Part shown: positions 19,121 through 45,368 of the stretch, in pieces
Numbering within the stretch: the stretch's first letter is position 1
Layout: each line of letters opens with the position of its first letter
Assembly: GCF_000712135.1 (NCBI RefSeq)
Contig: NZ_JOOE01000001.1
Location: 620,001 to 684,000, forward strand
Direction of reading: 5' to 3'
From: Sphingomonas sp. UNC305MFCol5.2
GTDB taxonomy: Bacteria; Pseudomonadota; Alphaproteobacteria; Sphingomonadales; Sphingomonadaceae
Length of the DNA stretch: 64,000 nt
The notes under the pieces: generated by a model
The model's input: the letters and a program-made list of their open reading frames with translations, nothing else
Told to the model about the DNA's origin: nothing
Database searches by the model: none
Translations under genes and position numbers: made by a program

Positions 19121-19150
19121 ATCTCGTCCCCTTCATCATATATTTGATAT

Positions 19151-19403: not shown

Positions 19404-19435
19404 ATAGCCGAGAACGGCAGAGGGGGAGAAACACG

Positions 19436-26036: not shown

Positions 26037-26097
26037 GACCGTCTCTCCTTCAAATGGGAGCGCCCGTGTTCGAATGAACGGCGCGGAATCAGATGCA

Positions 26098-28019: not shown

Positions 28020-28040
28020 CATATACCCCGTTCTTGAAGT

Positions 28041-28060
28041 CGAATAACGTATACGATACT
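28041..28060. promoter_or_regulatory. GTATAC-type operator between divergent hydroxyproline operons
   Basis: AATAACGTATACGATACTG with GTATAC at 28049-28054 lies 22-30 bp upstream of the minus-strand deaminase start and about 40 bp upstream of the plus-strand dehydrogenase start, so one bound repressor could control both. Confidence 0.55.
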
Positions 28061-28090
28061 GATTTTTGCGTTGCAATAGAGGATAACCGG

Positions 28091-29320
28091 TTGAGGCGAA
28101 TAACGATCATTGGCGGCGGCGTGGTCGGGCTATCCTGCGCGTCCGCGCTGTTGCGCGCAGGGCACGCGGTTATCGTGCTGGAATCCAGTACGATGCGCAA
28201 TGCTGCGTCGTGGGGAAATGCCGGGCATATCGCAACCGAGCAGGTCGCGCCGCTGGCATCGATGGCGAGCCTGCGCTCGGCTTGGCGCCGGCGCTTCGCC
28301 GCAGGCGGTGCGCTCGACCTGCCGGTACACGGCGTGCGCACTTGGCTTCCGTTCGCGTTGCGCTTCCTCGCTGCTGCACGGCCCGATCGCTTTCGTGCCG
28401 GCGGCGATGCATTGCGCGCGCTCCTCGCCGAGGCGCTCCCGGCGTGGCAGCGCGCGCCCTGGGCCGGGCAGCTGGTGAAGACGGAAGGTCATTTCGTCAT
28501 ATGGGGCGACACGGCCCAGGCAGCGGCCGGCAAAGCGGTGTGGCTAAGCGCCGACATCGGGACGGCACGGGTGGACGACGCTGCCCCGCAAGACATCGCC
28601 CGGATACGCGCAGTCATCCCTGCGCCGATCGCGGGTGCGCTGCGTTTCACCGGGACCGGCCAGATCAGCGACCTCGATCTGCTCGCCGCCGCACTCGAGA
28701 ACGACATCCTCCAGCAAGGCGGCCAGATCCTGCGCGAGACCGGCACGCTGATCCTTGAACAGGGGCAAGCGCGGGTGCCCGGGCATGAAGCCGATCTGGT
28801 GCTCGTCACCGCCGGTGTGCACAGCAAGCCTCTGGTCGAGCGCGCCGGACACCACGCGCCGATCGTCGCCGAGCGCGGCTATCATATCCGCGCCGTCGCG
28901 GATCACTGGCCCGCCGACTTGCCCCCGATCGTGTTCGAGGATCGATCGATGATCGTCACGCGTTATGCCGACACGGTCCAGGCCGCGAGCTTCGTCGAGC
29001 TGGGGCGGCCGGACGCGCCGCCCGACCCGCGCAAATGGGAACGGCTGGAGCACCGTGTCACCGAACTCGGCCTGCCGATGCGGCCGCCCTTCACGCGCTG
29101 GATGGGCGCCCGCCCTACCCTGCCCGACTATCTGCCGGCAATCGGCCGCTCGCGCCGCGCGGCCAATCTGCTTTACGCCTTCGGGCATCAGCATCTGGGC
29201 CTGACGCTCGCACCGATCACTGCCGAACTGGTGGCGGCGCTGGCGAACGAAACCCATCCCCACATCGATCTGACGCCGTTCGATCTCGAGCGATTCGGCG
29301 GCAAAGGAGGACGCGCATGA
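28091..29320 (+). CDS. FAD-dependent D-amino-acid (cis-4-hydroxy-D-proline) dehydrogenase
   Basis: 409 residues from a TTG at 28091, directly before the FAD-binding motif RRITIIGGGVVGLSCASALL. An upstream ATG at 28034 is in frame but would put the GTATAC operator inside the gene, so TTG is preferred. The GxGxxG motif, the SWGNAGHIATEQ segment (about residue 40) and the C-terminal GHQHLGLTLAPITAELVAAL are those of single-chain DadA-like dehydrogenases. In this setting it would oxidise cis-4-hydroxy-D-proline to pyrroline-4-hydroxy-2-carboxylate and pass electrons to the respiratory chain. ATGA overlap with the next gene. Confidence 0.85.
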   Translation: MRRITIIGGGVVGLSCASALLRAGHAVIVLESSTMRNAASWGNAGHIATEQVAPLASMASLRSAWRRRFAAGGALDLPVHGVRTWLPFALRFLAAARPDRFRAGGDALRALLAEALPAWQRAPWAGQLVKTEGHFVIWGDTAQAAAGKAVWLSADIGTARVDDAAPQDIARIRAVIPAPIAGALRFTGTGQISDLDLLAAALENDILQQGGQILRETGTLILEQGQARVPGHEADLVLVTAGVHSKPLVERAGHHAPIVAERGYHIRAVADHWPADLPPIVFEDRSMIVTRYADTVQAASFVELGRPDAPPDPRKWERLEHRVTELGLPMRPPFTRWMGARPTLPDYLPAIGRSRRAANLLYAFGHQHLGLTLAPITAELVAALANETHPHIDLTPFDLERFGGKGGRA

Positions 29321-30495
29321 CCATCGGCGGCTCGACTATCGCGGCGGAACTCGCCGCGCTGGAGCAATGGCCTTCCCCTGCCCCGCCTATCGGCAAAGAG
29401 GAGCGCAACGCGCGGCTGGAACGCGCCCGCGCGCGGCTGGCGGCGATCGGCGCCGACGCCCTGCTGGTCAATGCCGGGCCGAGCCTGCGCTATTTCACCG
29501 GGATCGGCTGGTCGCCGACCGAGCGGCTGGTGGCCATGCTGCTGCCCGTCAGCGGCAAGCCGTGGATCCTCTGCCCCGCTTTCGAGCGCGGATCACTGGA
29601 GGCCGAACTGGCGATCGATGCCGAATTGCTGCTGTGGGAGGAGGACGAGAGCCCGCTCGCGCTGATCGGAGACGCGCTGGCGGCGAATGCCGTGCTCGCG
29701 CTCGATCCACTGCTGCCGTTCCATTGGTCCGAGCCGCTGCGCGCATCGTTCCGACCGGTCTCCGGCGCTTTGGTGATCGACGGTTTGCGCATGGTGAAGT
29801 CCGCGACCGAACTCGCGCTGATGCAACAGGCCAAGCAGATGACGCTCGAGGTCCACCGCCGTGCGGCGGGCGTCCTCGCGCCCGGCATGTGCGCAAGCAC
29901 GGTCAAGCGCTTCATCGACGATGCGCACCGCGCGCTGGGTGCTGCGGGGTCGACATTTTGTGCGGTGCAGTTCGGAACCGCAACTGCCTATCCGCACGGC
30001 CTGCCCGGCGACCAGCAGCTCGAGGAAGGCCAATTGGTGCTGATCGATACCGGATGCACGGTCGACGGCTATCATTCGGACATCACCCGCACCTATGCGT
30101 TCGGCGCGGTCGATGACGAGATCCGCACGCTCTGGGCGCTGGAGAAGGAAGCGCAGGCCGCCGCCTTCGACGCTGTCGAACCGGGCGCGCCATGCGAGAG
30201 CGTCGATGCCGCCGCGCGGCGCGTGCTCGAACGCGCCGGCCTCGGTCCCGATTATCGCCTGCCCGGCCTTCCGCACCGCACCGGACACGGCATCGGCCTC
30301 GCGATCCACGAACCCGCCTATCTCGTCCGCGGTGACCACACGCCGCTGGCGCCGGGCATGTGCTTCTCGAACGAACCGATGATCGTCGTGCCCGAGCGCT
30401 TCGGCATCCGGCTGGAGGACCATATGCATGTGACCGAGACCGGCGCCGCCTGGTTCACCGAGCCGCAGCATTCGCTCGACCAGCCCTTCGCATGA
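29317..30495 (+). CDS. Xaa-Pro aminopeptidase/dipeptidase, M24 family
   Basis: 392 residues; start at 29317 overlaps the preceding stop (ATGA). A creatinase-type N-terminal domain (1-155) precedes the pita-bread domain with all five metal ligands: Asp244 and Asp255 (LIDTGCTVDGYHSDITRT), His324 (TGHGIGLAIHEP), Glu353 (SNEPMIV) and Glu367 (RLEDHMH). No signal peptide, so it is cytoplasmic. It cleaves peptide bonds next to proline, possibly hydroxyproline, freeing the imino acid for the enzymes encoded beside it. Coupled translation with the D-amino-acid dehydrogenase supports that role. Confidence 0.9.
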   Translation: MTIGGSTIAAELAALEQWPSPAPPIGKEERNARLERARARLAAIGADALLVNAGPSLRYFTGIGWSPTERLVAMLLPVSGKPWILCPAFERGSLEAELAIDAELLLWEEDESPLALIGDALAANAVLALDPLLPFHWSEPLRASFRPVSGALVIDGLRMVKSATELALMQQAKQMTLEVHRRAAGVLAPGMCASTVKRFIDDAHRALGAAGSTFCAVQFGTATAYPHGLPGDQQLEEGQLVLIDTGCTVDGYHSDITRTYAFGAVDDEIRTLWALEKEAQAAAFDAVEPGAPCESVDAAARRVLERAGLGPDYRLPGLPHRTGHGIGLAIHEPAYLVRGDHTPLAPGMCFSNEPMIVVPERFGIRLEDHMHVTETGAAWFTEPQHSLDQPFA

Positions 30496-32583: not shown

Positions 32584-34137
32584 CTAGTTCTTCCCGCAGG
32601 CAGGGGCTGCAACACCTGCCGCCGCCGGCACGCGGGGCCGCGGCGCGAGCACTTCCCATTCCTGCACGCCCACCCCCGCATAGGGGCCGCTACCCGAAGC
32701 GTCGAATACCATGCGCAGGCAGCGCGTCGTCACCGGCGCGAAGCGGACTTCCTCGAATGCGCCGGGCGTCGTGCCGTAGCCGCTTGTCCCGGCCACCGGC
32801 TTCCACGCACCATCCCAATATTCGAGGCGCCACGCCGCGGGCGGCGCGACGCCGATCCCCGATCCGGCGGGCTGGTCGGCGAAGAAATAGACGCGCGACC
32901 CGTCGACCGTCACCGGCTTCGCCCAGCGATATTCGACCCAGGGCTGCTTCGGGTTGTTGCCGTTCCACGTGCCCCACATTTCCGGCGGCAGCGGGTTGGC
33001 GCGGACCTTGCCGTCGTTGAGCGCGGCGATCCAATATTGCACCGGCACGACGTTCGATGACACCGCCGAAGCCGAGCCCGCGATGTTGCGCGTCGGCTTT
33101 GGCGCGGGCTGCGGTGCGCGGGTCGGCACCACCGGTCGGATCGCGGCGGGCGAGACGCTGTCGTCCCACTGCATTTCATCGATCGCCACGCTGCGCCGGA
33201 AATGCCCGCCGCCCACTGCGTCGGCGGTGTGATACACCATGTACCACTTGCCTTTAAATTCGACGGCACCGGCATGCGAGGTCGTCGAGGAGACCGGGCG
33301 CAGCGCGACTCCGCGATAGGTCCACGGCCCCAGCGGCGAAGTCGCGGTGCCCCAGGCCTGGCAGGCGTGATAGACCGCCGGCGTGCAGGCGCTGTCCGGG
33401 CCGGCCTTGTTGCCGGCGTAGAGCATGTAATAGACAAGCTTGCGCTTCAGGATCCACGGTGCCTCGAAGAAGCCGGTCAGCCCCTCGATCCGCTTCTCCG
33501 GTCCCTTGGGCGTGATCATGTCGCGTTCGAGTTCCATCCCGCGCAACTGACCGAACGTGCCCCAATAGATGTAGACCCGGCCATCGTCGTCGAGCAGCAC
33601 GGTCGGATCGATATTCTGGATATTGTTCGCAACGGGCAGCTTTTGCGAGATGATCGGCCCCGACGGGTGGGCATCCTTCCACGGCCCGGTCGGACGATCC
33701 GCCACCGCGACGCCGATCGCGAAGCGGTCCTTAGCGTCGCTGTTCTTCTCGAGCACCGGCGCATAGAAATAGAATCGCCCGTCGGGCCCTTTGACGATCT
33801 GCCCGGCATAGGCCCGCGCCGGCTCGGCCCAGGCGAAGACATTCTCGGGCCGGATGAAGCCGGGGGTATGCCGCCATTTCCGCGACGCCGGATCGCGCGT
33901 CGACAGCAGCTGCCATTCGGGCATGATGAAGTCGTTGACCTCGGGCTCGGCCATGTCGCGCCCGGTGAGGATGTAGAGCGTGTCGCCATCGACCAGCGGC
34001 GCCGGATCCGTCGTGTAGAAACGGCCGTCGGCGAGGATCGGGTTGCCCTTCGCGATCACCGTCTCGGACGCGGTCTGCGCGCAGGCCGCGCCGGGAAGCG
34101 CCGCCAGCAGCGGCGCGAGGGCAACCAGTCGCTTCAT
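32584..34137 (-). CDS. Secreted glycoside hydrolase family 43 (arabinofuranosidase/xylosidase type)
   Basis: 517 residues from ATG at 34137; the frame is open further but an exact signal peptide (1-20, LPGAACA) starts here. The five-bladed propeller acids are visible: base Asp44 (TDPAPLVDGD), pKa modulator Asp177 (NIDPTVLLDDDG) and acid Glu225 (FFEAPWI). A C-terminal beta-sandwich (about 385-505, ending YAGVGVQEWEVL) looks like a discoidin-type carbohydrate-binding domain. Family members mostly release alpha-L-arabinofuranose or xylose. It is last in a coupled operon led by a GH127 beta-L-arabinofuranosidase; that pairing recalls the Bifidobacterium system for extensin arabinosides. The GH43 subfamily was not determined. 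Confidence 0.85.
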   Translation of the reverse strand: MKRLVALAPLLAALPGAACAQTASETVIAKGNPILADGRFYTTDPAPLVDGDTLYILTGRDMAEPEVNDFIMPEWQLLSTRDPASRKWRHTPGFIRPENVFAWAEPARAYAGQIVKGPDGRFYFYAPVLEKNSDAKDRFAIGVAVADRPTGPWKDAHPSGPIISQKLPVANNIQNIDPTVLLDDDGRVYIYWGTFGQLRGMELERDMITPKGPEKRIEGLTGFFEAPWILKRKLVYYMLYAGNKAGPDSACTPAVYHACQAWGTATSPLGPWTYRGVALRPVSSTTSHAGAVEFKGKWYMVYHTADAVGGGHFRRSVAIDEMQWDDSVSPAAIRPVVPTRAPQPAPKPTRNIAGSASAVSSNVVPVQYWIAALNDGKVRANPLPPEMWGTWNGNNPKQPWVEYRWAKPVTVDGSRVYFFADQPAGSGIGVAPPAAWRLEYWDGAWKPVAGTSGYGTTPGAFEEVRFAPVTTRCLRMVFDASGSGPYAGVGVQEWEVLAPRPRVPAAAGVAAPACGKN

Positions 34138-34138
34138 G

Positions 34139-35896
34139 TCATTCCTCGTCCGGGTAAGGGCCCTTGCCGCCCTCGGCGATGAGCTGGTCGACGCGGCGGT
34201 TGATCTCGGGAATCGGCACCGATCCCAGCGCGAGCACCGCGTCGTGGAAGGCACGGATGTTGAACTTCGCGCCGAGTGCCTTTTCGGCGCGGGCGCGTGC
34301 TTTCAGGATCGCGAGCTCGCCGGTGTAATAGCTCAGCGCCTGCCCCGGCCAGGCGATGTAGCGATCGACTTCGGTCTCGATCTCGTGATCGGCCAGCGCG
34401 GTATTGTCGTGGAGGAATTGCTGTGCCTGTTCGCGGCTCCAGCCCTGCGCATGGATGCCGGTGTCGACCACCAGCCGTGCTGCGCGCCACATCTGGTAGG
34501 AAAGCATGCCGAACACCTCGTACGGCGTCTGGTACATTCCCATCTCTTCGCCCAGCGCCTCGCAATAAAGCGCCCAGCCCTCACCATAGACCGAGAGATA
34601 GGTGTCGCGCCGAAATGCCGGCAGGTCCTTGTTCTCCGCCGCGAGCGGCATCTGGAAGGCATGCCCCGGCGCGCTCTCGTGTAGCGTCAGCGCTGGCAGC
34701 GAGTAGAGCGGCCGCGCCGGCAGATTGTACGTGTTGATCAGATACACGCCGGGCCCGCCGCGCCCGCCGGTGTAGAAGGGCGCGATGTCGTCGGGCACCG
34801 GAATGATCGCGAAGCGGCTGCGCGGCAACCGGCCGAAATATTTCGAGGCCTTGCCGTCGAAGGTCTTGGCGATCCACGCCCCGCGATCGAGCAGAGCCTG
34901 CGGCGTCTTCGCGTAGAATTGCGGATCGGTGCGCAGGAACTTGAGGAAGGCGGCAAGATCGCCCTTGAATCCGACCTGCTGCATCACGTCGTGCATCCGG
35001 GCACGGATCTTGGCGACTTCGGCGAGGCCGATCGCATGGACCTGCTCGGGGGTCTGGTCGAGCGTGGTGTATTCGGCGACCTTGGACTGGTAATAGGCCC
35101 GCCCGTCGGGAAGGTCATATGCCGCGAGCGCCGTCCGCGCGCCGGGAATATATTCGTCGCGCAGGAAGCGCAGCAGCTTCGCATGCGCGGGCACCACTGC
35201 CTCGCGGATCGCCGCCTCGCCCTCGGCGCGCAGCTTTGCCTGGGTCGCCGCCGGCATGCCCGCCGGGAATTTGGAGAAGGGCGCGAAGAACGGCGAATCC
35301 GCCGGCGACTTCGCCTCGGCGACCTTGGCCACCCCCGCATCGCGGCCCTGTAACGTGATCCGAGACGGCGTGAAGCCGCGCTTGAGCCCCGCGCGCATAT
35401 TGACGATCTGCTGGTCGAAGTACCGCGGGATATCGCGCAGCGTCGCCAGGTAACGGCGATAATCCTTCTCGCGCACGAAATCGCCGCGTGCGGATTCGGC
35501 GAGGTCGCCCCAGAAGCTGCTGTCGGCGTTGAGCGGCTTCTCGTAGTCGCGATATTGCTGCTCGTTCAGCAGCGCCTCGATCTGTCCCTTGAACACCGCG
35601 TAATTGACTCGCTCGGCGGGCGAGAGCTTTGCCGGATCGATCTTGCCCAGAGCAGAGAGCGTCGCCGTCCAGCGCGCCAGCCTTTCGGCCTGCGCGGCGG
35701 GGCCGATGTCGGGAAGCCCGAGCTTCTGGTCCTTGGGGCTATCCTCATTCGGCGCCTGCTGGCGCTGCCGCCACGCATATTCTTCGGTGTACAGTTTCCG
35801 AAGCTGCGCATCGGGTCCAGGCAACGGCGCCGCCGCCGTCAGCATCGCCGCGCCTACCAGCAAAATCCCTGCCTTGCGCCAAGCCTGCACGCTCAC
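34139..35896 (-). CDS. Secreted DUF885 family protein, zinc-peptidase-like
   Basis: 585 residues. A signal peptide (about 1-23) is followed by the DUF885 fold. The hallmark HESxPGH motif appears as LHESAPGHAFQ, followed by VYGEGWALYCEALGEEMG, which supplies the further acidic ligand. These proteins are widespread in Proteobacteria, are probably metallopeptidases or carboxypeptidase-like, and are poorly characterised. Start and stop overlap its operon neighbours (ATGA on one side, TGACATG on the other). Its place between an imino-acid reductase and an arabinosidase suggests cleavage of the peptide part of an arabinosylated glycoprotein. Confidence 0.85.
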   Translation of the reverse strand: MSVQAWRKAGILLVGAAMLTAAAPLPGPDAQLRKLYTEEYAWRQRQQAPNEDSPKDQKLGLPDIGPAAQAERLARWTATLSALGKIDPAKLSPAERVNYAVFKGQIEALLNEQQYRDYEKPLNADSSFWGDLAESARGDFVREKDYRRYLATLRDIPRYFDQQIVNMRAGLKRGFTPSRITLQGRDAGVAKVAEAKSPADSPFFAPFSKFPAGMPAATQAKLRAEGEAAIREAVVPAHAKLLRFLRDEYIPGARTALAAYDLPDGRAYYQSKVAEYTTLDQTPEQVHAIGLAEVAKIRARMHDVMQQVGFKGDLAAFLKFLRTDPQFYAKTPQALLDRGAWIAKTFDGKASKYFGRLPRSRFAIIPVPDDIAPFYTGGRGGPGVYLINTYNLPARPLYSLPALTLHESAPGHAFQMPLAAENKDLPAFRRDTYLSVYGEGWALYCEALGEEMGMYQTPYEVFGMLSYQMWRAARLVVDTGIHAQGWSREQAQQFLHDNTALADHEIETEVDRYIAWPGQALSYYTGELAILKARARAEKALGAKFNIRAFHDAVLALGSVPIPEINRRVDQLIAEGGKGPYPDEE

Positions 35897-36915
35897 CCTC
35901 CGATCGCCATGATGTCCGCGTACAGCGCCGCGGGGATGGTCACGCCCTCGGCGAGACTGCGCACCCGCGCGGCGTAACGCCGCTGCGACGGCAGCCGCGC
36001 GCCCTGCCCCTCGATCGCCGCGAACATCGCCTCGGCGCGTTCGAGATGCGCCTGCACCGCGCCGCCCAGAAAGCCCGCCGGATCGAACGCGACGATCAGC
36101 TCACCCCCGATCGGCGAGCCGCCACGGCCCTTGTCGACGGCGATCGACTCCGCGCTTGTCATATCGCCGATCAGTGGCCCGGCGAGCAATTCGACCATCG
36201 CCGCCAATGCCGAACCCTTGTGCCCGCCAAAGGTGCGCATCGCGCCGTTCAGCACCGCCTCGGCATCGGTGGTGCTGCGCCCCTCGGCGTCATAGCCCCA
36301 ATCGTCGGGGATCGCCCGGCCCTCGCGGCGATGCAGCTCTATCTCGCCGCGCGCCACGGCGCTGGTCGCGAAATCGAACACGAAAGGTTCACGCCCCGGG
36401 CGCGGCCAACCGAACGCGATCGGATTGGTCCCGAACACGGGTTTCGTTCCGCCCGCGGGCGCGACCCAGGCATGGCTCGGCGTGAAGGCCAGCGCCACCA
36501 GCCCCTGCTCCGCCAACGCCTCGACCTCGGGCCACAGCGCCGCGAAATGGACGACATTGTTGAGCGCCAGCGCCGCGATGCCGTTCGTCCGCGCCTTTTC
36601 GACGAGCACCGGCATCCCACGCGCGAAGGCAAGCTGCGCGAACCCGCCGCCGCCGTCGACCTGCACCAGCCCCGCCTTCGGCTCGGAGACCACCGGCACT
36701 GCATCAGGCGCCACCACGCCCGCGCGGATGCTGCGATCGGCGACGAGCAGCCGGTAGATGCCATGGCTCGCACAGCCGTCGCGCTCGCCCGCGACCATCG
36801 TCTCCGCCACAGCGTCGGCGTGATCGCCGGCCAGCCCTGCCGCCCGCAGCTTGGCGCGGGCAAGTTCGCGCAATTCGTCGAGCGTCATCGCAACGCCGGC
36901 CGCGGCCTCGCTCAA
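35893..36915 (-). CDS. LDH2-family oxidoreductase, probable delta1-pyrroline/piperideine-2-carboxylate reductase
   Basis: 340 residues of the malate/L-lactate dehydrogenase (LDH2) family: catalytic His in CASHGIYRL, VVHFAALWPEVEALAEQG, and FGTNPIAFGWPRPG followed by VFDFATSAVARGEIELHRREG. The GTNPIAFGWPR form is close to the DpkA-type reductases that reduce cyclic imino acids to L-proline or L-pipecolate with NADPH, a step used in D-proline and trans-3-hydroxyproline catabolism. Malate- or ureidoglycolate-type activity is the alternative. No signal peptide. ATGA overlaps on both sides lock it between GH127 and DUF885 genes, an unusual combination that favours an imino-acid role. Confidence 0.8.
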   Translation of the reverse strand: MSEAAAGVAMTLDELRELARAKLRAAGLAGDHADAVAETMVAGERDGCASHGIYRLLVADRSIRAGVVAPDAVPVVSEPKAGLVQVDGGGGFAQLAFARGMPVLVEKARTNGIAALALNNVVHFAALWPEVEALAEQGLVALAFTPSHAWVAPAGGTKPVFGTNPIAFGWPRPGREPFVFDFATSAVARGEIELHRREGRAIPDDWGYDAEGRSTTDAEAVLNGAMRTFGGHKGSALAAMVELLAGPLIGDMTSAESIAVDKGRGGSPIGGELIVAFDPAGFLGGAVQAHLERAEAMFAAIEGQGARLPSQRRYAARVRSLAEGVTIPAALYADIMAIGG

Positions 36916-39290
36916 ATCTTCGCGCCCGGCTTCGCAGTGAACAGGCGGACGCCGAAGATCGGACCGGCGGTGCTGCGGTCATGCGGCACGATCCGCACCC
37001 GCACTTCCTTCTTGCCCTTGGTCAACGCTTCGGGAAGCGGATATTCCACGTCGAAGAACTTGCCCGGCTTGTCATTGTCGAGCGTCTGCGTGGCGACCTT
37101 CACATTGTCGACCAGGATGTCGAAGTCGCGCTTGCGTTCGCCGCCCCAATAGGTCGCCTGCAGGATCAGCGGGCCGTCCTTGGGCTTGAGCGTGAATTCG
37201 ATGAACCCGCCCGAACGCGCATCGCGCCCCTGCCGGCCGCGATAGGTGACCGGATAGGAGATGTCCGAGGTGAGGTTGTGGTCGCGCTCGGGCTGCATCT
37301 CGCCGAGGAACATCACGTCGACCGAACGCGCGGCGATGTCCTTCAGCCGCGCCTGCTCGGCGAGGAACGCCTTCTCCTCGGCCGCCCAGGCGCTTTCCGA
37401 GAAGCGCTTGAAATAGGTCGCGCTGCGCCGGTTGTACTGGCGATAGAAGGGTACGAACTGCAGATCGGCGGGCCGCACCACACCACGCGTGGCGTAAATG
37501 CCCTTCGGCGGGTCGCTCGGAGTGAAGCCCGCGAGCAGATCGGCGCCGACCAATGCCGGATCGGCCTGCTCCCATTTCACGTCTTTCGACCCGAGATCCG
37601 CCGCGAGCACCATCGGGCCGCTCAGCACGGCGACGGTGTTCTCGTCGCCCGGTGCGGATTCGATGCGAAGCTCGAGCGGCAGCGCGATCGCCACCGTGTC
37701 GCCCGTCTTCCAGCGCCGGTCGACCACGGCATAGCCGCGCTCGAACACGGGCGTGGCCGGCTGGCCATTGACGGTGACCACCGCCTTGCCCGCCCCCCAT
37801 CCCGGGACGCGCAGCGCGACCGGGAAACGCCCCGCTTTGACCTTGGTGAAGGTGAGCGTCGATTCCGGCGCGAACGGATAGTTGGTCTCCAGCGTCAGCG
37901 CCGCATTGCGCTTCGCCCAGCTGGCGTCGGCAGGGATGTAGAGATTGACGATCAGCCCGCCGGCATCGTCTTCCCAGAAGATCGACTCGCCGTGCTTGGA
38001 ATGAACCTCCATGCCGCTGCCGACGCAGCACCAGAAGGCGTCGTCGTCCACCGTCGAATAGCCGCGTTCGCTGCCGGTCATCAGCGGGGTCATGTAGGTG
38101 AAGCCGCCGGTCGCCGGGTCCTGCGCCGACATCACATGGTTGAGGTGCGCACGCTCGTAAAAATCGAACAGCGCGCCGTCGGGCTGCCATCCATAAAGGT
38201 GCCGGGTCAGCTTGAGCATATTGTAGGTGTTGCAATGCTCGCAGGTCTGCTCGGTGATGTGATCGGCGACGGTATCGGGCGTGAAGAAATATTCGCGGTC
38301 GGCATTGCCGCCGATGACGTAGCTGTGGTGCTGGGTCACCCGCTCCCAGAAGAAGGTCGCTGCGGTCCGGCGCTTCTCGTTGCCGGTGATGTCGTAGATG
38401 CGCGCCAGCCCGATCAGCTTGGGCACCTGCGTGTTGGCGTGGAAATTGGCGAGCTTGTCCTCGCGGTTGCTCAGCGGATCGAGCACGCGGTTGTCGTAGA
38501 GCGTCTCGGCCATCTTGAGCCAGCGCGGATTGCCGGTACGCTGGTGCATCTCGGCATAGCTCTCGTTGAGCCCGCCATATTCGCAGCCCAGCACTTCCTG
38601 CACCTGCGCCGGGGTGAGCGCGGCGAACACCCGCTCGAAATAGCCGCCCAGCCCTTCGACCACCGCCAGCGCCTTCTTGTTGCCCCACGCGCCATGGACG
38701 TCGAGCAGCCCCGCGAACAATTTGTGCACGGTGTAGAGTGGCGACCACGAGCCGTTGAGATCGAACCCGCCGGACTTGATCTCGCCCTTCATCACCTCGC
38801 CGAATATCTCCTCGCCATCGACGACGGTCCCGTCCTTCCGCTTGCGGCCCAGCGCGCCGACATAGCCGGTGCCGCGCTTGGCCTGCGCCTCGGCGAGCTC
38901 GTCGACGATGTAATCGGCGCGGGTGCGCATCTCGGCATCGCCGGTCTGCTGCCACATCAGCACCAGAGCGGTCATGTAATGGCCGAGCGTGTGACCGGCG
39001 ATCGTATCGCTCTCCCATCCGCCATAGATCGGCGCCTTGGGCTCGAGCCCGGCATATTTGCGAAAGTTATGCAGAAGCCGATCGGGGCTGAGCCGGTGGA
39101 GATACTTGCGGTTGACCTCGACCGCGGTGGCATAGTCGGAAGGGCGCAGCCGGACCGAGGCGAGCGGCAGCGGCTTGACGCCCTTCGGCGCGAACGCCCC
39201 GGCGGCGCGCGCGATCCCCGCCTGCGACGCCATCGCCAGCGCTGCGGCTCCGAACATCAATTCCCGGCGGGAAGCGCGCATGTCCTGCAT
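36912..39290 (-). CDS. Beta-L-arabinofuranosidase, glycoside hydrolase family 127-like
   Basis: 792 residues. The N-terminus has a Tat-type signal (SRRELMFGAAALAMASQ). The (alpha/alpha)6 barrel carries the zinc-cysteine site of GH127: Glu351 and Cys353 (EHCNTYNMLKL) and the adjacent Cys421-Cys422 (FWCCVGSGME), matching the Glu-Cys3 zinc cluster of HypBA1, one cysteine of which is the nucleophile. Glu333 (DREYFF) is the likely acid/base. C-terminal beta domains follow. The family removes beta-L-arabinofuranose, best known from hydroxyproline-linked arabinosides of extensin; the related GH146 acts on other plant glycans. It heads the operon and has a GTATAC operator about 20 bp upstream. Confidence 0.88.
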   Translation of the reverse strand: MQDMRASRRELMFGAAALAMASQAGIARAAGAFAPKGVKPLPLASVRLRPSDYATAVEVNRKYLHRLSPDRLLHNFRKYAGLEPKAPIYGGWESDTIAGHTLGHYMTALVLMWQQTGDAEMRTRADYIVDELAEAQAKRGTGYVGALGRKRKDGTVVDGEEIFGEVMKGEIKSGGFDLNGSWSPLYTVHKLFAGLLDVHGAWGNKKALAVVEGLGGYFERVFAALTPAQVQEVLGCEYGGLNESYAEMHQRTGNPRWLKMAETLYDNRVLDPLSNREDKLANFHANTQVPKLIGLARIYDITGNEKRRTAATFFWERVTQHHSYVIGGNADREYFFTPDTVADHITEQTCEHCNTYNMLKLTRHLYGWQPDGALFDFYERAHLNHVMSAQDPATGGFTYMTPLMTGSERGYSTVDDDAFWCCVGSGMEVHSKHGESIFWEDDAGGLIVNLYIPADASWAKRNAALTLETNYPFAPESTLTFTKVKAGRFPVALRVPGWGAGKAVVTVNGQPATPVFERGYAVVDRRWKTGDTVAIALPLELRIESAPGDENTVAVLSGPMVLAADLGSKDVKWEQADPALVGADLLAGFTPSDPPKGIYATRGVVRPADLQFVPFYRQYNRRSATYFKRFSESAWAAEEKAFLAEQARLKDIAARSVDVMFLGEMQPERDHNLTSDISYPVTYRGRQGRDARSGGFIEFTLKPKDGPLILQATYWGGERKRDFDILVDNVKVATQTLDNDKPGKFFDVEYPLPEALTKGKKEVRVRIVPHDRSTAGPIFGVRLFTAKPGAKI

Positions 39291-39300
39291 CTCAATCTCC

Positions 39301-39321
39301 TGAATACCGTATACGATTACT
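39301..39321. promoter_or_regulatory. GTATAC-type operator upstream of the GH127 operon
   Basis: GAATACCGTATACGATTACTG with GTATAC at 39309-39314 lies 19 bp from the GH127 start. It shares CGTATACGAT with the site between the hydroxyproline operons at 28.05 kb, the strongest match between any two sites here. Confidence 0.55.
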
Positions 39322-39384: not shown

Positions 39385-40131
39385 TCAGTCGTCGAGAAGC
39401 GAGACTTCGGTATCGGCGAGCGCCAGGCCGACCAGCTCGGTCATCGCCGTGCGCGCGGCTTCGACATCGCTCGCGGCGATCGCGTCGAGCAAAGCGCGGT
39501 GATCGGGGATCGGGTCGCGCGGCAGCGCGCGCTTGCGTTGCTTGTAGATCGTCGTCCAGGCGATCGCCGCGAGGATCGAGCTCGCCAGCGCGATCATCGC
39601 ATCGTTCTGTGTCGCTTCCATCATGATCATGTGGAAGCGCTGGTCGGCAAAGCGTCCCGCCTCGGTTGCCAGTCCGTGCCGGGCCATCTCATCCAGGGCC
39701 TCGCGCATCGCCGACAATTGCGCCTCGCTGCGCCGCTGGGCGGCGAATGCCGCAGCACTCGGCTCCACCACCATCCGCAGCTCGAAAAGGTCCACCACGA
39801 ATTTGAGGCTCGGCTCGGACTCGAATTGCCAGGCGAGCAGATCGGGATCGAGCAGGCTCCATTGGCGCCGCGGCGCGACACGCGTTCCCGCCTTGGGCCG
39901 ACTATCGACCAGCCCCTTGGCCGCGAGCATCCGGAATGCCTCACGCAACGCCGGACGCGAAATGCCGATCTGTTCGGAATAATCGAGTTCGCTCGGGAAG
40001 ATGTGCCCCTCGGGCAGCTCGCCGGACAGGATCATCACGGCAAGCTGCTGTGCGAGCGACCCTTTGAGGCGTTGGGCGCTGCTGCTCTGCAGCATCGAAC
40101 CCTTCCTGATATGGGTGCCGTAATCAGCCAA
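39385..40131 (-). CDS. FadR-type GntR transcriptional regulator
   Basis: 248 residues. The winged helix-turn-helix is at about 25-90 (SELDYSEQIGISRPALREAF, then GLVDSRPKAGTRVAP). An FCD ligand domain follows, with FELRMVVEPSAAAFAAQR, the RFHMIM helix and PDHRALLDAI supplying metal/ligand residues. It resembles sugar-acid regulators such as DgoR. It lies between the GH127 operon and the divergent peptidase operon, with a palindrome in the shared promoter region, so it probably represses both and itself. Together with the other GntR protein it is a candidate reader of the GTATAC sites. Confidence 0.88.
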   Translation of the reverse strand: MADYGTHIRKGSMLQSSSAQRLKGSLAQQLAVMILSGELPEGHIFPSELDYSEQIGISRPALREAFRMLAAKGLVDSRPKAGTRVAPRRQWSLLDPDLLAWQFESEPSLKFVVDLFELRMVVEPSAAAFAAQRRSEAQLSAMREALDEMARHGLATEAGRFADQRFHMIMMEATQNDAMIALASSILAAIAWTTIYKQRKRALPRDPIPDHRALLDAIAASDVEAARTAMTELVGLALADTEVSLLDD

Positions 40132-40185: not shown

Positions 40186-40206
40186 TCATACAATATACTG
40201 TATAAT
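40186..40206. promoter_or_regulatory. Inverted repeat in the divergent regulator/peptidase promoter
   Basis: ATACA-N6-TGTAT (40188-40203, spacer ATATAC) lies 55 bp from both the regulator start at 40131 and the peptidase start at 40258. It is related to but not identical with the four GTATAC sites. Confidence 0.45.
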
Positions 40207-40257: not shown

Positions 40258-42618
40258 ATGCAACGCAGTCGAGATTCGAGACACCACGGGTCGGTCCGCG
40301 CCGCGCGCGCGCTGGCGCCGCTCTTGCTCCTCGCGAATGCCGGCCCGACGACGTCGCCAGCACCGACGATTGCCGACCGCTATGCACGTGCCGACCGCTA
40401 TTTGCGCCCCGAACTCGACAAATTGATCGTCAACGCCGATCTGCGCGCGGCCTTCACCCGCGACGGAACGGGCATCCTCTACCGGCTGGGCAGCGCGGGC
40501 AAACGCCAGATCCGTTATCTCGACCTCGTCACCGGCCAATCGCGCTCGATTGTCGACGAAGTGCAGCTGGCCCGATTGCTCGCGCAGGCGACGAGCAAGG
40601 AAGTCGATGCGGCCGCTCTGCGCCTCGACGATCCCGATTACAGCGCCAAAGACGGCACGCTCACTTTCGGAGTCGCGGACAAGCAATGGACGCTGAACGG
40701 CGCGGGCGCGCTGGTGGAGGCGAAGAAGGGCGCCCCTGACGGCGAAGGTGCGGTCTCGCCCGATGGCCGCTTCGAGATCGTCGCACGCGACTATAATCTG
40801 TTCGCGCGCGAGCGGAAATCGGGACGCGAGGTCGCGCTCACCCGCGACGGCACGCGCGAGCAGCCTTATGGCCGCGGCATTCCCCAGCTCGCCGACATCC
40901 TAAAGGCGGGAACCGAGGAGCCGAAGATGCCGGTATCGGTGATATGGTCGCCCGACAGCCGCCGCATCCTCAGCTGGCGGCTGGACACGCGCGGCGTCGA
41001 ACGGCTTTCGATCACGCAGGAAAATCCGCCGGGAAGCTATTATCCACGCAGCTTTCAATATGTGTACCCGCTCGCCGGCGCCGCGAAACTGCCGCAGGCG
41101 ACGCGCTTCGCCGTGGATGTCGAGGAGGCACTGAAGCGCAAGCGCGCGACGATCGTGACGCTCGACGTGCCGAGCGAATCGCTGCTCTATCCCGCCGATC
41201 CCGATCTCGGCTGGTCGGGCGGCAAGGCGCGGATTCAGTGGACCGAGCGCGGCTATCGGCAACTCGTCGTCTACCAGGCCGATCCGCAGACCGGCAAATC
41301 GACTGTTACTGCGCGCGAAGCGGTCAAGCCGATCGTCACGGTGACTTCGAGCTTCCTGCGCCCGGCGCCGGAGCTCGGCGGTGAGCTCGACGTGTCCGAA
41401 CGTTCGGGCTGGGCGCAACTCTATTTCATTCGCCCCGACGACCCTGATGGCGGAATCCCGCTCACCCGCGGCGACTGGGAAGTGCTCGATATCGCGCATG
41501 TCGACGCGGCGGATCGCACCCTGCTGCTCACCGGCGTTGGGCGCGAGCGCGACCGCAATCCTTATTACCGCGCGCTGTATCGAGTGACGCTCGACGGCAA
41601 GCAGCCGATGCTGCTCACGCCCGAGCCGCTCGATCATGAGATCGAGGTGTCATTCGACGGCAAATGGTTCATCGATGCGATGTCGAGCCCGACCGTACCG
41701 ACCCGCACCGTGGTCCGCGACGCGCGCGACGGCCGCATCGTCATCGAGCTTGCGCGCGCCGATGCCGGCGCGCTGCTCGCAACCGGATATACCCCGCCCG
41801 AGCCGTTCACCGGCGTCGCCGCGGACGGCAAGACGCCGCTCCACGGGATGATCTGGCGCCCTGCCAATTTCGACCCCAAGGCGCGTTACCCGATCATTGA
41901 TGCAGTCTATACCGGCCCGACCACCACCAACGTGCCGACCAGCTGGAACGGCGCTATCACGGCGGGTGCCGGGAGTGTCGCGCAATTGGGCGCGATCGTC
42001 GTCAGTATTGACGGCCGCGGCACCTCGCGCCGCGGTCAGGCTTTCCGCCTTCCCGCATACCAAAATCTCGGCGAGGTCGGGCTAGACGACCATATCGCGA
42101 TGATCCGTCAGATGGCCGCCCGCTACCCGTATATCGATGCTGACCGGGTGGGCGTCTATGGCGGCTCGGCGGGTGGTTACGACGCCGCGCGTTTCGTGCT
42201 GCGCCGACCGGGGTTCTTCAAGGTCGCGGTCGCCTCGTCAGGTAACCACGACCTGCGGCTCGACAAGGCGTGGTGGCCCGAAGTCTCGATGGGGAACCCC
42301 GACGAAGCGGTGTGGGAGCGCAACTCGAACATGTCAGTGGCGAAGAACCTGCAGGGCAAATTGCTGCTCATCCATGGCGACATCGACGACAATGTCCCAG
42401 TGACCGAGAGCATGCGCCTCGCCAACGCGCTGATCACCGCGGGCCGGGACGTCGATGTCGTGATCCTGCCGAATACCACGCACAGGGTCGCGCAGCCCTT
42501 CTTCTGGCGCAAGCTGCGCGACTATTTCACGCGCCATCTGCTCGACGAGAAGCCCCCGGTGCTGCCCCTCCCCGACCCCGCACCTGCCATGCCTGCCGTT
42601 GGCGCCACCACGAAATGA
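40258..42618 (+). CDS. Prolyl dipeptidyl peptidase, S9 family (DPP IV-like)
   Basis: 786 residues from ATG at 40258 with GGGGGAGG upstream. A signal-like N-terminus (ALAPLLLLANAGPTTS) and a beta-propeller region (about 40-530) precede the alpha/beta-hydrolase domain. The triad is Ser637 (GVYGGSAGGYD), Asp710/711 (HGDIDDNVP) and His742 (NTTHRV); mammalian DPP IV has 630/708/740, so spacing is nearly the same. The elbow reads GGSAGG rather than the usual GxSYGG. Such enzymes remove Xaa-Pro dipeptides from peptide N-termini, here presumably in the periplasm. It overlaps the next gene by 4 bp (ATGA). Confidence 0.9.
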   Translation: MQRSRDSRHHGSVRAARALAPLLLLANAGPTTSPAPTIADRYARADRYLRPELDKLIVNADLRAAFTRDGTGILYRLGSAGKRQIRYLDLVTGQSRSIVDEVQLARLLAQATSKEVDAAALRLDDPDYSAKDGTLTFGVADKQWTLNGAGALVEAKKGAPDGEGAVSPDGRFEIVARDYNLFARERKSGREVALTRDGTREQPYGRGIPQLADILKAGTEEPKMPVSVIWSPDSRRILSWRLDTRGVERLSITQENPPGSYYPRSFQYVYPLAGAAKLPQATRFAVDVEEALKRKRATIVTLDVPSESLLYPADPDLGWSGGKARIQWTERGYRQLVVYQADPQTGKSTVTAREAVKPIVTVTSSFLRPAPELGGELDVSERSGWAQLYFIRPDDPDGGIPLTRGDWEVLDIAHVDAADRTLLLTGVGRERDRNPYYRALYRVTLDGKQPMLLTPEPLDHEIEVSFDGKWFIDAMSSPTVPTRTVVRDARDGRIVIELARADAGALLATGYTPPEPFTGVAADGKTPLHGMIWRPANFDPKARYPIIDAVYTGPTTTNVPTSWNGAITAGAGSVAQLGAIVVSIDGRGTSRRGQAFRLPAYQNLGEVGLDDHIAMIRQMAARYPYIDADRVGVYGGSAGGYDAARFVLRRPGFFKVAVASSGNHDLRLDKAWWPEVSMGNPDEAVWERNSNMSVAKNLQGKLLLIHGDIDDNVPVTESMRLANALITAGRDVDVVILPNTTHRVAQPFFWRKLRDYFTRHLLDEKPPVLPLPDPAPAMPAVGATTK

Positions 42619-45368
42619 GAGACATCATGCTGAACGCGCGTACCTTCGGCCCCGCGGCCCTGCTCCTCGCCGGCATCTCGTCCGCGGTCTGCGTCCCGGC
42701 GCTGATGGCGCAGGAGCAGCCAAAGCCGGTCTACGCGCCCATCCAGACCGATGCCCACAAGGTCGGTAGTTTCGAGATTGCCCTGCGCAGCGACACCCAG
42801 ACGCTCGCGCGCCTCTCGCCCGCCGCCGAGCCCGCGTTCAGCTTCGTGCCGACCGCGCGCGAGCCCGAGCGCGCCGGCGACGGCTACAACCATATCGGCG
42901 ACCTCAACCTTCGCATCCGCGCGCCCGGCGGCGAATGGCGCGACTTCGCTTCGGCGCACGCGCGGAAACCGATCCGGCTGTTGCCCGCCACGGGCAAGGT
43001 GATCGCCGCGGCCGACATCACTGCAAGCATGGGCAGCGACGCGCCTTTCAGGGTCGAGCGCCGCTGGGTCGACGAAGCCGGGTTGCTCGGGCTGCGCTTC
43101 CGCATCACCAATACGACCAAACAGCCGTTCGAGATCGGCGCACTCGGCATGCCGATGGTGTTCGACAACATCATCACCGACCGCAATCTCGATCAGGCGC
43201 ATGCCGAGGCGAGCTTTGTCGACCCCTATATCGGCCGGGACGCCGGCTATCTGCAGGTCACGCGCCTTAACGGCCAGGGGCCGGCACTGCTGGTGCTTCC
43301 CGAGAAAGGCAGCCCGCTCGAGGCCTACGCACCGCTCAAGAACCCGCGGGAGGCGAAGGACTCGATCTTTACCGACAAGAGCCAGCGCGGCCAGACCTCC
43401 GAGGGCTTTTACGACTGGACCGTCCACAGCATCGGCTATGCCGGGCGCGAGTGGAAGGATGCCGGCGAGCAGTGGAACGCGCCCACCGGCCGCACCCTCG
43501 AGCCGGGCCAGACGATCGAAGTCGGCGTCCGGATGACCCAGACGCCGTCGATCCGGGCGATCGAAAGCACGCTGATCGCCAACAAGCGTCCGGTCGCGGT
43601 GGGCATACCCGGCTATGTCGTCCCCGCTGACCAATCGGCGACCCTGTTCGTCAAAGCGCCGAGCGCAATCCGCAAGATCGAGAGTTGGCCCGTCGGCGCA
43701 GTCGAGGCGACGCCCGCCGGCAGCCAGAAGGGCTGGGTCAGGCTAGCGGTGCGCGGCAAGCAATGGGGTCAGGCGCGCCTCACCCTCACTTATGCCGACG
43801 GGCAGGTACAGACGGTCAGCTATTTCGTGACCAAGCCGCTCGAGCAGGCCATGGCCGATCTCGGCCGCTTTTCGACGACCAGGCAGTGGTTCGAAGGCAA
43901 GGACGACCCGTTCGGCCGCTCACCCGCTATCCTCACATACGACATCGAGGCGAAGAAGATCGTCGATGTCGAGCCGCGCGTGTGGATCGCCGGGATGAGT
44001 GACGAAGGCGGCGGCGGCGCTTGGGTCGCGGCGACGATGAAGCAGCTCGACAATCCGGATCCGGCCGAGGTCGCGAAGATCGAACGGCTGGTGACCGAAA
44101 CGGTAGTCGGCAACCTCCAGGTCGCCGACGGCCCGCAGGCCGGCGCGGTCAAGAAGAGCCTGTTCTATTACGACCCGGTCAAGTTCCCGAACCTCTACAA
44201 GGACGCCGACAAATGGAAGTCGTGGACCTCGTGGAAGGAAAAGGACGCGCGCGATCTCGGCCGCGCCTATAATTACCCGCACGTCGCGATCGGCCATTGG
44301 GTGCTCTATCGCACCGCGCGCAACCATCCGGGGCTGGTCAAGCGCCATGACTGGCGCTGGTATCTCGACAAGGCCTACGTCACTACCGTCGCGATGATGC
44401 GCGATGCGCCTTATTATGCCGAGTTCGGGCTGATGGAGGGCGACGTGTTCGTCGACATCCTCAAGGACTTGAAGCGCGAAGGCCTCACCGCCGAAGCCGA
44501 TGAAATGGAAAAGCTGATGAAGAAGCGCGCCGATCACTGGCGCACGCTCAAATTTCCGTTCGGATCGGAGATGCCGTGGGATTCGACCGGCCAGCCCGAA
44601 GTCTATGCGTGGATGCGCTATTTCGGATACCAGCCGCAGGCCGAAATCACTCGCGAAGTGATCCTCGGCTATGATCCGACGATCCCGAGCTGGGGCTATA
44701 ACGGCAATGCCCGCCGTTACTGGGACTTCCTCTATGGCGGCAAATATCCGCGGATCGAGCGCCAGATCCACCACTACGGCTCGGCCCTGAACGCAGTCCC
44801 GTTGTTCGACGCCTATCGCCAGAACCCCAGCGACCTGCATCTGCTGCGCGTCGCGTATGGCGGGATGATGGGCGGCATCACCAACATCGATCAGGAGGGC
44901 TTCTCGTCCGCCGCGTTCCACGCCTGGCCCGACATGATGAAATGGGATCCCTATACCGGCGATTACGGCATGGGGTTTTACGGCCACGCGCTGACCGCGG
45001 CGACCTATCTCGTCAACGACCCGACCTTCGGCTGGCTCGGCTTCGGCGGTGACGTGACGCTCGGCAAGGACGGCGTGCAGGTACGGCCGAAGGACGGCGC
45101 CCGATCGCGGATGTTCGTCGCTCCCGCAGGCGCGTGGATCACGCTCGACGCAGGCAAGATCGCTAATGTGACGTACACGCCGGTCAACGGCGCGATCACG
45201 TTGACGCTGGATCCAGCGGCCGCGACCACGCCCACAGCCCGGCTTCGAATCGAGATGACGACACAAGGCGCCCATCCGCTCGCCCCCTCCACGGGCACGC
45301 AGGAGCGCGACGGCTATACCATCGCGCTCGGCAACGCCCCGACCATCGTCAAACTCAGCCCGCGCTGA
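42615..45368 (+). CDS. Large secreted DUF5695-like protein, candidate glycoside hydrolase
   Basis: 917 residues; ATG 42615 overlaps the peptidase stop, with ATG 42627 as alternative. A signal peptide (ALLLAGISSAVCVPALMAQ) is followed by beta-sandwich regions (about 40-400) and an alpha-helical barrel-like region (about 430-830, with AYNYPHVAIGHWVLYR, SEMPWDSTGQPEVYAWM and HHYGSALNAVPLFDAY), then a small C-terminal beta domain. This layout and several blocks match what I know as DUF5695, a family with helical-toroid glycosidase architecture. No activity can be assigned; acidic residues in PWDSTGQPEVYAW are candidates. Coupling to a prolyl peptidase suggests a glycopeptide substrate. Confidence 0.7.
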   Translation: MRDIMLNARTFGPAALLLAGISSAVCVPALMAQEQPKPVYAPIQTDAHKVGSFEIALRSDTQTLARLSPAAEPAFSFVPTAREPERAGDGYNHIGDLNLRIRAPGGEWRDFASAHARKPIRLLPATGKVIAAADITASMGSDAPFRVERRWVDEAGLLGLRFRITNTTKQPFEIGALGMPMVFDNIITDRNLDQAHAEASFVDPYIGRDAGYLQVTRLNGQGPALLVLPEKGSPLEAYAPLKNPREAKDSIFTDKSQRGQTSEGFYDWTVHSIGYAGREWKDAGEQWNAPTGRTLEPGQTIEVGVRMTQTPSIRAIESTLIANKRPVAVGIPGYVVPADQSATLFVKAPSAIRKIESWPVGAVEATPAGSQKGWVRLAVRGKQWGQARLTLTYADGQVQTVSYFVTKPLEQAMADLGRFSTTRQWFEGKDDPFGRSPAILTYDIEAKKIVDVEPRVWIAGMSDEGGGGAWVAATMKQLDNPDPAEVAKIERLVTETVVGNLQVADGPQAGAVKKSLFYYDPVKFPNLYKDADKWKSWTSWKEKDARDLGRAYNYPHVAIGHWVLYRTARNHPGLVKRHDWRWYLDKAYVTTVAMMRDAPYYAEFGLMEGDVFVDILKDLKREGLTAEADEMEKLMKKRADHWRTLKFPFGSEMPWDSTGQPEVYAWMRYFGYQPQAEITREVILGYDPTIPSWGYNGNARRYWDFLYGGKYPRIERQIHHYGSALNAVPLFDAYRQNPSDLHLLRVAYGGMMGGITNIDQEGFSSAAFHAWPDMMKWDPYTGDYGMGFYGHALTAATYLVNDPTFGWLGFGGDVTLGKDGVQVRPKDGARSRMFVAPAGAWITLDAGKIANVTYTPVNGAITLTLDPAAATTPTARLRIEMTTQGAHPLAPSTGTQERDGYTIALGNAPTIVKLSPR

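Follow-up and report, generated by a model that had tools for sequence, protein, structure and literature searches.

The window analysed here is a stretch of 64,000 nucleotides (bases 620001-684000 of contig C1, in a genome of 4.24 Mb), and this report concerns a four-gene operon on its minus strand, in which two arabinosidase-type genes enclose an LDH2-type reductase gene and a DUF885 gene. The first-pass annotation of this DNA had named arabinosylated hydroxyproline peptide as the reason for such a coupling. That idea was supported by gene co-occurrence, gene order, a shared palindrome and the existence of GH146 enzymes that act on arabinofuranosyl-beta-hydroxyproline (Araf-beta-Hyp; PMC10850190). 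We consider it likely that a regulon spanning about 30 kb (16-47 kb) and serving the use of hydroxyproline-rich plant glycoproteins (HRGPs), that is arabinogalactan proteins (AGPs) and/or extensins, has this operon at its core. The four genes were found in the order and at the coordinates first described:

36912..39290, minus strand: GH146-like beta-L-arabinofuranosidase with a twin-arginine-like signal (by eye); Pfam GH127 catalytic domain (GH127_cat), middle domain (GH127M) and DUF6805; PDB 5opj
35893..36915, minus strand: LDH2/MLD2 reductase, predicted DpkA-type cyclic ketimine (pyrroline-2-carboxylate) reductase from Ldh_2, the best PDB match (DpkA, 1wtj), a motif and a tree
34139..35896, minus strand: metallopeptidase-like DUF885 protein, by eye probably exported; PF05960, 522 bits
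32584..34137, minus strand: GH43 alpha-L-arabinofuranosidase-type enzyme, C-terminal domain like part of HypBA2; PF04616, best PDB match 3qee (Gly43N); the open reading frame extends to 34254

Read from the sequence, the stop codon of the arabinosidase overlaps the TTG start of the reductase by 4 bp (TTGA), and the stop of the reductase overlaps the GTG start of DUF885 by 4 bp (GTGA). A gap of 1 bp separates the DUF885 stop from an ATG at 34137 (TGA-C-ATG), the probable start of the GH43 gene, which is directly followed by a signal-peptide-like stretch (by eye). The first overlap requires TTG as the reductase start, the next Met codon being at 36888. In a GC-rich genome, overlaps this short say little by themselves, and the case for coupling is made by conservation; the tight coupling that had been claimed was confirmed by the junctions together with the conserved gene order described below. 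Rfam and tRNA scans gave zero matches.

On its two sides the operon is flanked by hydroxyproline catabolic genes, a prolyl peptidase, a DUF5695 gene and a peptide transporter, none of which the first-pass annotation had named in this context. The hydroxyproline group comprises the following genes:

23943..25358, minus strand: APC amino acid permease (AA_permease_2), candidate (hydroxy)proline importer
25386..26105, minus strand: second GntR/FCD regulator, adjoining the epimerase gene, candidate for binding the palindrome
26098..27096, minus strand: 4-hydroxyproline 2-epimerase of the Cys/Cys type; NF010578, 540 bits against a cut-off of 376; MCGHG and SPCGTG in the translation
27105..28019, minus strand: DHDPS-family protein (PF00701) adjoining the epimerase gene, candidate delta1-pyrroline-4-hydroxy-2-carboxylate (Pyr4H2C) deaminase, LhpC-like
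28034..29320, plus strand: DAO-family FAD oxidoreductase (PF01266), candidate D-hydroxyproline/D-proline dehydrogenase; PRK00711 below cut-off
29317..30495, plus strand: M24 peptidase (PF00557 and Creatinase_N), Xaa-Pro dipeptidase-like; PepQ the best NCBIfam match, below cut-off

Further searches placed the DHDPS and DAO proteins in no subfamily, leaving the families PF00701 and PF01266 only. An alpha-ketoglutarate semialdehyde dehydrogenase was not seen among the scanned proteins of the window; the rest of the genome was not searched for it.

Co-occurrence was counted in a genus set of 151 genomes with strong orthologs only (LDH2 above 400 bits, epimerase above 280 bits, GH146 above 1000 bits), these thresholds having been fixed after the lists were inspected. 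G022 and the second LDH2 copies in G151 and G124 were excluded, the G112 reductase, which lies in two overlapping pieces, was counted once, and the epimerase count includes the partial G161. LDH2 was present in 61 genomes, the epimerase in 70 and GH146 in 62. Both LDH2 and the epimerase occurred in 60 genomes, LDH2 alone in one (G083), the epimerase alone in ten and neither in 80 (Fisher 3e-30, a value overstated by the relatedness of the genomes), which amounts to an epimerase in 60/61 genomes with LDH2 compared to 10/90 without it. GH146 was found in 59 of the 61 LDH2 genomes, at most 400 bp from LDH2 in 56 of them, and the epimerase lay at most 25 kb from LDH2 in 43. Where LDH2 does not adjoin GH146 (G004, G074, G121, G138 and G149), it is found among hydroxyproline genes in five of five cases. 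Two of these genomes, G004 and G074, carry LDH2 without a GH146 ortholog at 1000 bits, with three weaker matches in G004.

Gene order was read in a set of named loci, the best 80 of 296, each with an identity of 75% or more and mostly from sphingomonads, some of which overlap the genus genomes; at least the best-matching ones belong to Sphingomonas. With genes counted at 40% identity or more and within about 10 kb, we found GH146 and DUF885 in 78 loci each, the DHDPS gene in 62, DUF5695 in 60, the epimerase in 51, the second GntR/FCD regulator in 43, the permease in 41, DAO in 36, GH43 in 34, M24 in 33, S9 in 25 and the two TonB receptors in 19 and 17. GH146 lies directly upstream of the reductase in 78/80 loci and DUF885 directly downstream in 78/80, both in 76/80. 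GH146-LDH2-DUF885 is a fixed core, and the outer genes are variable. An uninterrupted run from the operon to the DHDPS gene is present in 20/80 loci. In Sphingomonas sp. MA1305 (L121), GH146, LDH2, DUF885, GH43, DHDPS and epimerase genes follow on a single strand with small gaps, and Novosphingobium pokkalii (L123) has a co-directional GH146-LDH2-DHDPS-epimerase arrangement. Two loci labelled Microvirga sp. (L089) and Bacillus sp. (L143) carry a reductase 78-80% identical in the same gene order and are possibly mislabelled genomes. In a draft contig of Novosphingobium sp. HII-3 (L130:1339-4155), LDH2 and DUF885 share one open frame, either a fusion or a sequencing error.

A survey of 398 genomes of the phylum extended the comparison. 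It took 29 of the 31 non-own LDH2 matches of at least 270 bits (G216 and G450, near contig ends, were omitted) and 11 weaker LDH2s, hand-chosen, nine of them from the same class, with stretches of 12.6-20 kb. A racemase-superfamily neighbour was present for 18/29 strong LDH2s, 28 of the 29 being from other genera, and for 0/11 weak ones (p = 3e-4). Racemase typing in distant and named loci used the second residue only, which was unread in 5/22 distant and 3/51 named rows. In G263, which belongs to another class, GH146 and DUF885 adjoin LDH2 but are arranged differently, and a racemase-superfamily gene is 21 kb away.

The operon and the hydroxyproline genes also share an operator-like palindrome. 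Four sites matching ATACCGTATACGGTAT with at most three mismatches were found in the window compared to 0.01 expected, the consensus being drawn from these sites:

39304..39319: palindrome ATACCGTATACGATTA, upstream of the GH146 operon
40188..40203: palindrome ATACAATATACTGTAT, between the FadR gene and the S9 operon
28044..28059: palindrome in the region from which the DHDPS and DAO genes diverge; it falls within the DAO open reading frame as mechanically called, but the true DAO start is likely near 28070 or later
19147..19162: palindrome between two TonB-receptor genes, with further matches at 19383-19405
39385..40131, minus strand: FadR-type GntR/FCD regulator (FCD and GntR domains), one of two candidates for binding the palindrome; ortholog in only 15/80 named loci

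Since the consensus was built from window sites, the independent test lies in other genomes. Dinucleotide shuffles served as the control because a coding control was biased in composition. A core match of at least 9/12 was found in 64/76 GH146 upstream regions and 27/31 DHDPS-DAO regions compared to 46/1520 and 18/620 shuffles (about 3%). At 10/12 or more the counts were 32/76 and 10/31 compared to 5/1520 and 0/620. Chance juxtaposition of the genes was rejected on the basis of the co-occurrence, the gene content of the named loci and the palindrome in other genomes. A wider regulon outside the window was likewise rejected, as the core pattern had 13 sites genome-wide compared to 10 for the reversed control; both exact core matches lie within the window and sites with two mismatches elsewhere are at background. 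For sites outside the window five other stretches were fetched, with only one more scanned for families. A double palindrome site lies on C4, in a stretch that holds a PtsP-like gene and an amino acid kinase. The palindrome-binding protein would be one of the two GntR/FCD regulators.

The reductase scores 322.6 bits with PF02615 and no signal peptide was seen by eye. Its nearest solved relative is DpkA (1wtj) with 248 bits, the next reaching 136, and it is 45% identical to DpkA and 32-35% to four other references. In a midpoint-rooted tree with 40 LDH2 proteins from other genomes and only five partial references, it falls within a 31-member group (100/96) with DpkA as sister (99/95), apart from the malate and ureidoglycolate enzymes. 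The motif HF[AS]ALW, noticed in the present analysis and to our knowledge not a published signature, is present in DpkA, in 26/29 strong and 1/11 weak LDH2s of the phylum survey and in 0/4 other references. This fair count uses loci from a protein search; the occurrence in 80/80 named loci carries no weight, since these were chosen partly via the peptide VHFAALW. Sinorhizobium HypS is regarded as a pyrroline-2-carboxylate reductase of D-proline catabolism. MLD2 (that is, LDH2) proteins adjoining proline-racemase-superfamily genes were reported to reduce proline ketimine (PMC4113996), a reference title in that paper gives DpkA a role in D-lysine and D-proline metabolism, and a "malate dehydrogenase", hypS, is listed within HypR regulons (PMC5343134). 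Sequence comparison therefore supports the prediction of a DpkA-type proline-ketimine reductase. Accordingly, of the substrate first proposed, the proline-ketimine type is upheld by the DpkA score, the motif and the tree. Pyrroline-2-carboxylate as the exact substrate is less secure, as it stands outside the 4-hydroxyproline route and no 3-hydroxyproline dehydratase was recognised.

The 4-hydroxyproline route yields a 4-hydroxy ketimine, and pyrroline-2-carboxylate is no intermediate of it. No T3LHyp dehydratase of the racemase superfamily was recognised in the genome, where the Cys/Cys epimerase is the sole gene of that superfamily, and the genome search gave no match to AcnX. A 3-hydroxyproline route in this genome was therefore rejected. 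Among the 61 LDH2 genomes of the genus only G004 and G121 have a second racemase-superfamily member, that of G121 being Ser/Cys by eye. In PMC4113996 the neighbours of MLD2 were read as a sign of the 3-hydroxyproline route, an inference that does not fit the present genome. With no recognised 3-hydroxyproline dehydratase, the substrate of the reductase would either stem from D-proline or be the 4-hydroxy ketimine. Oxidation of D-proline is the simplest source of pyrroline-2-carboxylate. D-proline could in turn arise from a side activity of the epimerase, though the values reported for measured epimerases are small.

The arabinosidase had been labelled GH127, a name that was rejected in favour of a GH146-like assignment. 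Against solved structures it scores 444 bits to GH146 BT0349 (5opj), compared to 93 with 4qjy, which ranks first among the GH127 entries, and 55 with HypBA1. The GH146 zinc and nucleophile set is matched by E351, C353, C421 and C422, with E333 as acid/base candidate (for the roles of the zinc and cysteine residues in GH146/GH127 see PMC10850190), and W182 aligns with the active-site Trp of BT0349. According to the same paper, Araf-beta-Hyp is a substrate of two GH146 enzymes, XeHypBA1 and Bll4HypBA1, and the substrates of Bll3HypBA1 include arabinogalactan protein and arabinan. GH146 membership, as judged from sequence, fits a hydroxyproline-rich substrate, short of proof. Two more GH146/GH127-like genes lie in the same genome (G000:C1 1368918-1371236 and 942119-943654; 49% and 35% identity to the operon gene). 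In the GH43 protein, residues 388-537 of the open reading frame match positions 1138-1284 of HypBA2. A complete extensin triad including HypBA2 was rejected, as this one domain is the sole HypBA2 match.

For the DUF885 protein a structure model (pLDDT 84) matched 3o0y with Z 38.6. After DUF885 crystal structures it matched MATCAP, M32 carboxypeptidases, the Pz-peptidase (M3), neurolysin and ACE at Z 9-13, all of them zinc peptidases by entry title and family among the matches listed; this range is easily reached by mostly helical folds and hence given moderate weight. In the sequence HESAPGH at 406-412, the residues H406, E407, P410, G411 and H412 are invariant in 37 rows, and E439-G-W likewise. 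Moreover, DUF885 has been assigned to the Peptidase_MA clan (PMC12572635). We regard the protein as a putative ACE/M32-like metallopeptidase with an M2/M3/M32-like fold, at moderate strength. Of the earlier proposal of a Pro/Hyp peptidase, the peptidase part is moderately supported by the model fold, the preference for Pro or Hyp being a prediction.

Further genes complete the picture on either side:

16214..19120, minus strand: TonB-dependent receptor (family scan)
19436..22240, plus strand: TonB-dependent receptor; TIGR01782 over cut-off
22389..23894, minus strand: GH27 alpha-galactosidase-type enzyme; Melibiase_2
40258..42618, plus strand: S9 prolyl oligopeptidase / dipeptidyl-peptidase IV-like peptidase (DPPIV_N, Peptidase_S9), start uncertain
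42615..45368, plus strand: DUF5695 protein of PL27-like architecture, predicted to be a carbohydrate lyase/hydrolase; PF18951, 1264 bits
45558..46928, plus strand: POT-family oligopeptide:H+ symporter; TIGR00924 over cut-off

The DUF5695 model (mean pLDDT 76, ten segments under 50) shows a beta-sandwich plus (alpha/alpha)6 architecture and matches PL27 BACCELL_00875 (5no8) with a Foldseek E of 5e-21 and Z 20.0 over 605 residues, the next family reaching 15.3; a family missing from such structure searches is not thereby excluded. A PDB search by sequence gave no credible relative (a single match, E 0.66). PL27 enzymes free rhamnose from gum arabic (PMC8377490), which is termed an arabinogalactan protein (PMC8939339). 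From its model, DUF5695 is a candidate new carbohydrate-active family. The model also carries an additional C-terminal beta region beyond the PL27-like part.

Type IV secretion genes (VirB4/CagE, CagX, TrbI and VirB11-like) lie at 47947-55177 on the plus strand, starting about 1 kb past the POT gene, and the border of the glycoprotein locus may be a mobile or conjugative region. At 11126-14422 the minus strand encodes a large histidine kinase of the hybrid type, whose domains are MASE3, PAS, GAF and receiver.

From the observed gene content, families and clades, co-occurrence, conserved order, shared palindrome and model folds, we infer a working model with its substrates, export, direction of flow and regulator-site pairing. 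Glycoprotein fragments would enter via the two TonB receptors, and in the periplasm GH146, GH43, DUF5695 and GH27 would strip L-arabinose and other sugars. DUF885 and the S9 peptidase would then cleave the Pro/Hyp peptide once it is bared. Peptides and amino acids would be taken up by the POT carrier and the permease, and the M24 peptidase would split X-Pro/X-Hyp. The epimerase, DAO and DHDPS-type enzymes would convert trans-4-hydroxy-L-proline to alpha-ketoglutarate semialdehyde. LDH2 would be a cytosolic NAD(P)H-dependent cyclic-ketimine reductase that most likely converts pyrroline-2-carboxylate from D-proline oxidation to L-proline. A GntR/FCD regulator acting on ATACCGTATACGGTAT-like palindromes would switch the parts on jointly.

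Several observations weigh against this model. Ten of the 70 epimerase genomes have no LDH2, which is therefore dispensable for 4-hydroxyproline use. Conversely, 18/61 LDH2 loci have no epimerase within 25 kb: eight of these keep the DHDPS gene, the regulator and the permease next to DUF885, another is G121, and in the remaining nine, among them G083 with no epimerase anywhere, the stretch read holds no further hydroxyproline gene. Of the 60 genomes that carry both genes, 17 have the epimerase at another place, and the genus genomes are not independent of one another. POT and GH27 genes are found near the reductase in only 2/80 and 6/80 named loci. The 64 named loci with a palindrome before GH146 have the FadR ortholog in 14 cases, the second GntR/FCD regulator in 33 and neither within the locus in 20. 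Beyond the one GH43 domain, no HypBA2 (GH121) match was found in the genome (NF041578, 43 bits against a cut-off of 3200). The DUF885 protein lacks a literal HExxH motif, and the non-DUF885 matches of its model have Foldseek E values of 0.014 or worse. With no recognised 3-hydroxyproline dehydratase there is also no dedicated source of pyrroline-2-carboxylate, and measured epimerases barely act on proline (AbHypE 0.124 compared to 58.6 units/mg; P. putida HypE with a 3430-fold lower kcat/Km for L-proline; PMC4364671).

Three other explanations were weighed. GH43 is a usual arabinan enzyme, and the two other GH146/GH127-like genes elsewhere in the genome would also suit an operon for pectic arabinan or rhamnogalacturonan-I with the amino-acid genes as mere neighbours. 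Likewise, the substrates used to characterise the nearest solved GH146 (BT0349) derive from arabinan (PMC10850190). However, the conserved order with DUF885 and LDH2, the 60/61 co-occurrence with the epimerase, the palindrome common to the hydroxyproline promoter and the persistence of LDH2 with hydroxyproline genes when GH146 is elsewhere make an arabinan operon quite improbable. A role of LDH2 as a dehydrogenase of sugar acids or carboxylic acids, dealing with the arabinose that GH146 sets free, would agree with the family name malate/lactate dehydrogenase, with its relatives YiaK and AllD, and with LDH2 tracking GH146 (59/61) about as tightly as the epimerase. Yet LDH2 stands apart from the references used, malate and ureidoglycolate enzymes among them, its identity to DpkA is 45% compared to 32-35%, and in G004 and G074 it occurs without a GH146 ortholog at the 1000-bit threshold. 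Such a specificity, which the first-pass annotation had named as the refuting case, is disfavoured by phylogeny and context, and we consider it highly improbable.

A closer rival concerns the substrate. LDH2 may act on delta1-pyrroline-4-hydroxy-2-carboxylate rather than on pyrroline-2-carboxylate, by reducing it or, in the opposite direction, by dehydrogenating L-hydroxyproline directly. In its favour, 59/61 LDH2 genomes of the genus have no second racemase-superfamily member and hence no such dehydratase, AcnX was also not found in the genome, and LDH2 tracks the 4-hydroxyproline pathway. Against this, reduction of proline ketimine was measured for relatives encoded near hydroxyproline genes (PMC4113996), reduction of the 4-hydroxy compound would remake hydroxyproline and waste NAD(P)H, and with the epimerase retained a bypass is not evident. 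We regard this alternative as unlikely.

We thus return to the glycoprotein regulon as the preferred reading. In its fullest form, put forward tentatively and as somewhat doubtful in its entirety, it is a single-operator HRGP regulon of sphingomonads that treats sugar and backbone as one food. DUF885 would cut Hyp/Pro peptides as a metallopeptidase whose zinc motif is a stretched HExxxGH, and DUF5695 would represent a new family of AGP-glycan lyases or hydrolases. LDH2 would take part in 4-hydroxyproline breakdown without a 3-hydroxyproline dehydratase, on a D-proline-derived or 4-hydroxy ketimine. HRGPs are major components of the plant wall, and the regulon, if true, would show how leaf and root bacteria exploit their protein part. 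It also offers predicted functions for DUF885, DUF5695 and the LDH2 clade, in which the name "malate/lactate dehydrogenase" would give way to a proline-type role.

The individual parts are of known kinds. A literature search in open-licence papers gave no prior description of their combination with a shared palindrome among the matches listed. DpkA, the piperideine-/pyrroline-2-carboxylate reductase (1wtj), shares the motif HFAALW with our reductase and is its closest solved relative and tree sister, but the two are only 45% identical. The DUF5695 model resembles the PL27 L-rhamnose-alpha-1,4-D-glucuronate lyase BACCELL_00875 (5no8, Z 20.0) and was compared at the level of architecture, with 14% identity and an extra C-terminal region in DUF5695. 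In Streptomyces, a GntR/FadR-type regulator also joins hydroxyproline genes and a protein-degrading enzyme, a putative collagenase, in the HypR regulon (PMC6608401). However, the passages on that regulon mention no glycosidase and its site is another one, of a symmetry that the authors called unclear. A dipeptidyl peptidase-4 of Sphingomonas Leaf257 was induced 6.4-fold on leaves shared with Rhizobium Leaf68 and was tied to proline-rich wall glycoproteins, with no mention of the present locus in the passages on this protein (PMC9123166). HRGP use has also been predicted for Latescibacteria from GH127 genes (PMC4454575).

Likenesses are also found in hyp/lhp clusters with an MLD2 reductase, charted from genome neighbourhoods (PMC4113996; hypS in PMC5343134), which share the epimerase, a DAO-type oxidase, a DHDPS-type deaminase, a regulator, transport genes and LDH2/MLD2 with our locus. 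In contrast, the reductase described here shares its operon with arabinosidases and DUF885, in a genome in which no racemase-family dehydratase or AcnX was found. The bacterial HRGP systems treated in PMC6085000 and PMC10850190 concern sugars. XeHypBA1/BA2/AA of Xanthomonas euvesicatoria (PMC6085000) and HypBA1/BA2 of Bifidobacterium longum likewise combine a beta-arabinofuranosidase with GH43, XeHypBA1 being placed in GH127 by PMC6085000 and in GH146 by PMC10850190. The Xanthomonas HRGP locus also has a prolyl oligopeptidase-like neighbour gene, there termed a pseudogene (PMC6085000). The sphingomonad locus differs in that it matches only one domain of HypBA2 (GH121) and has, in addition, DUF885, DUF5695, LDH2 and the hydroxyproline catabolic genes, all sharing a palindrome.

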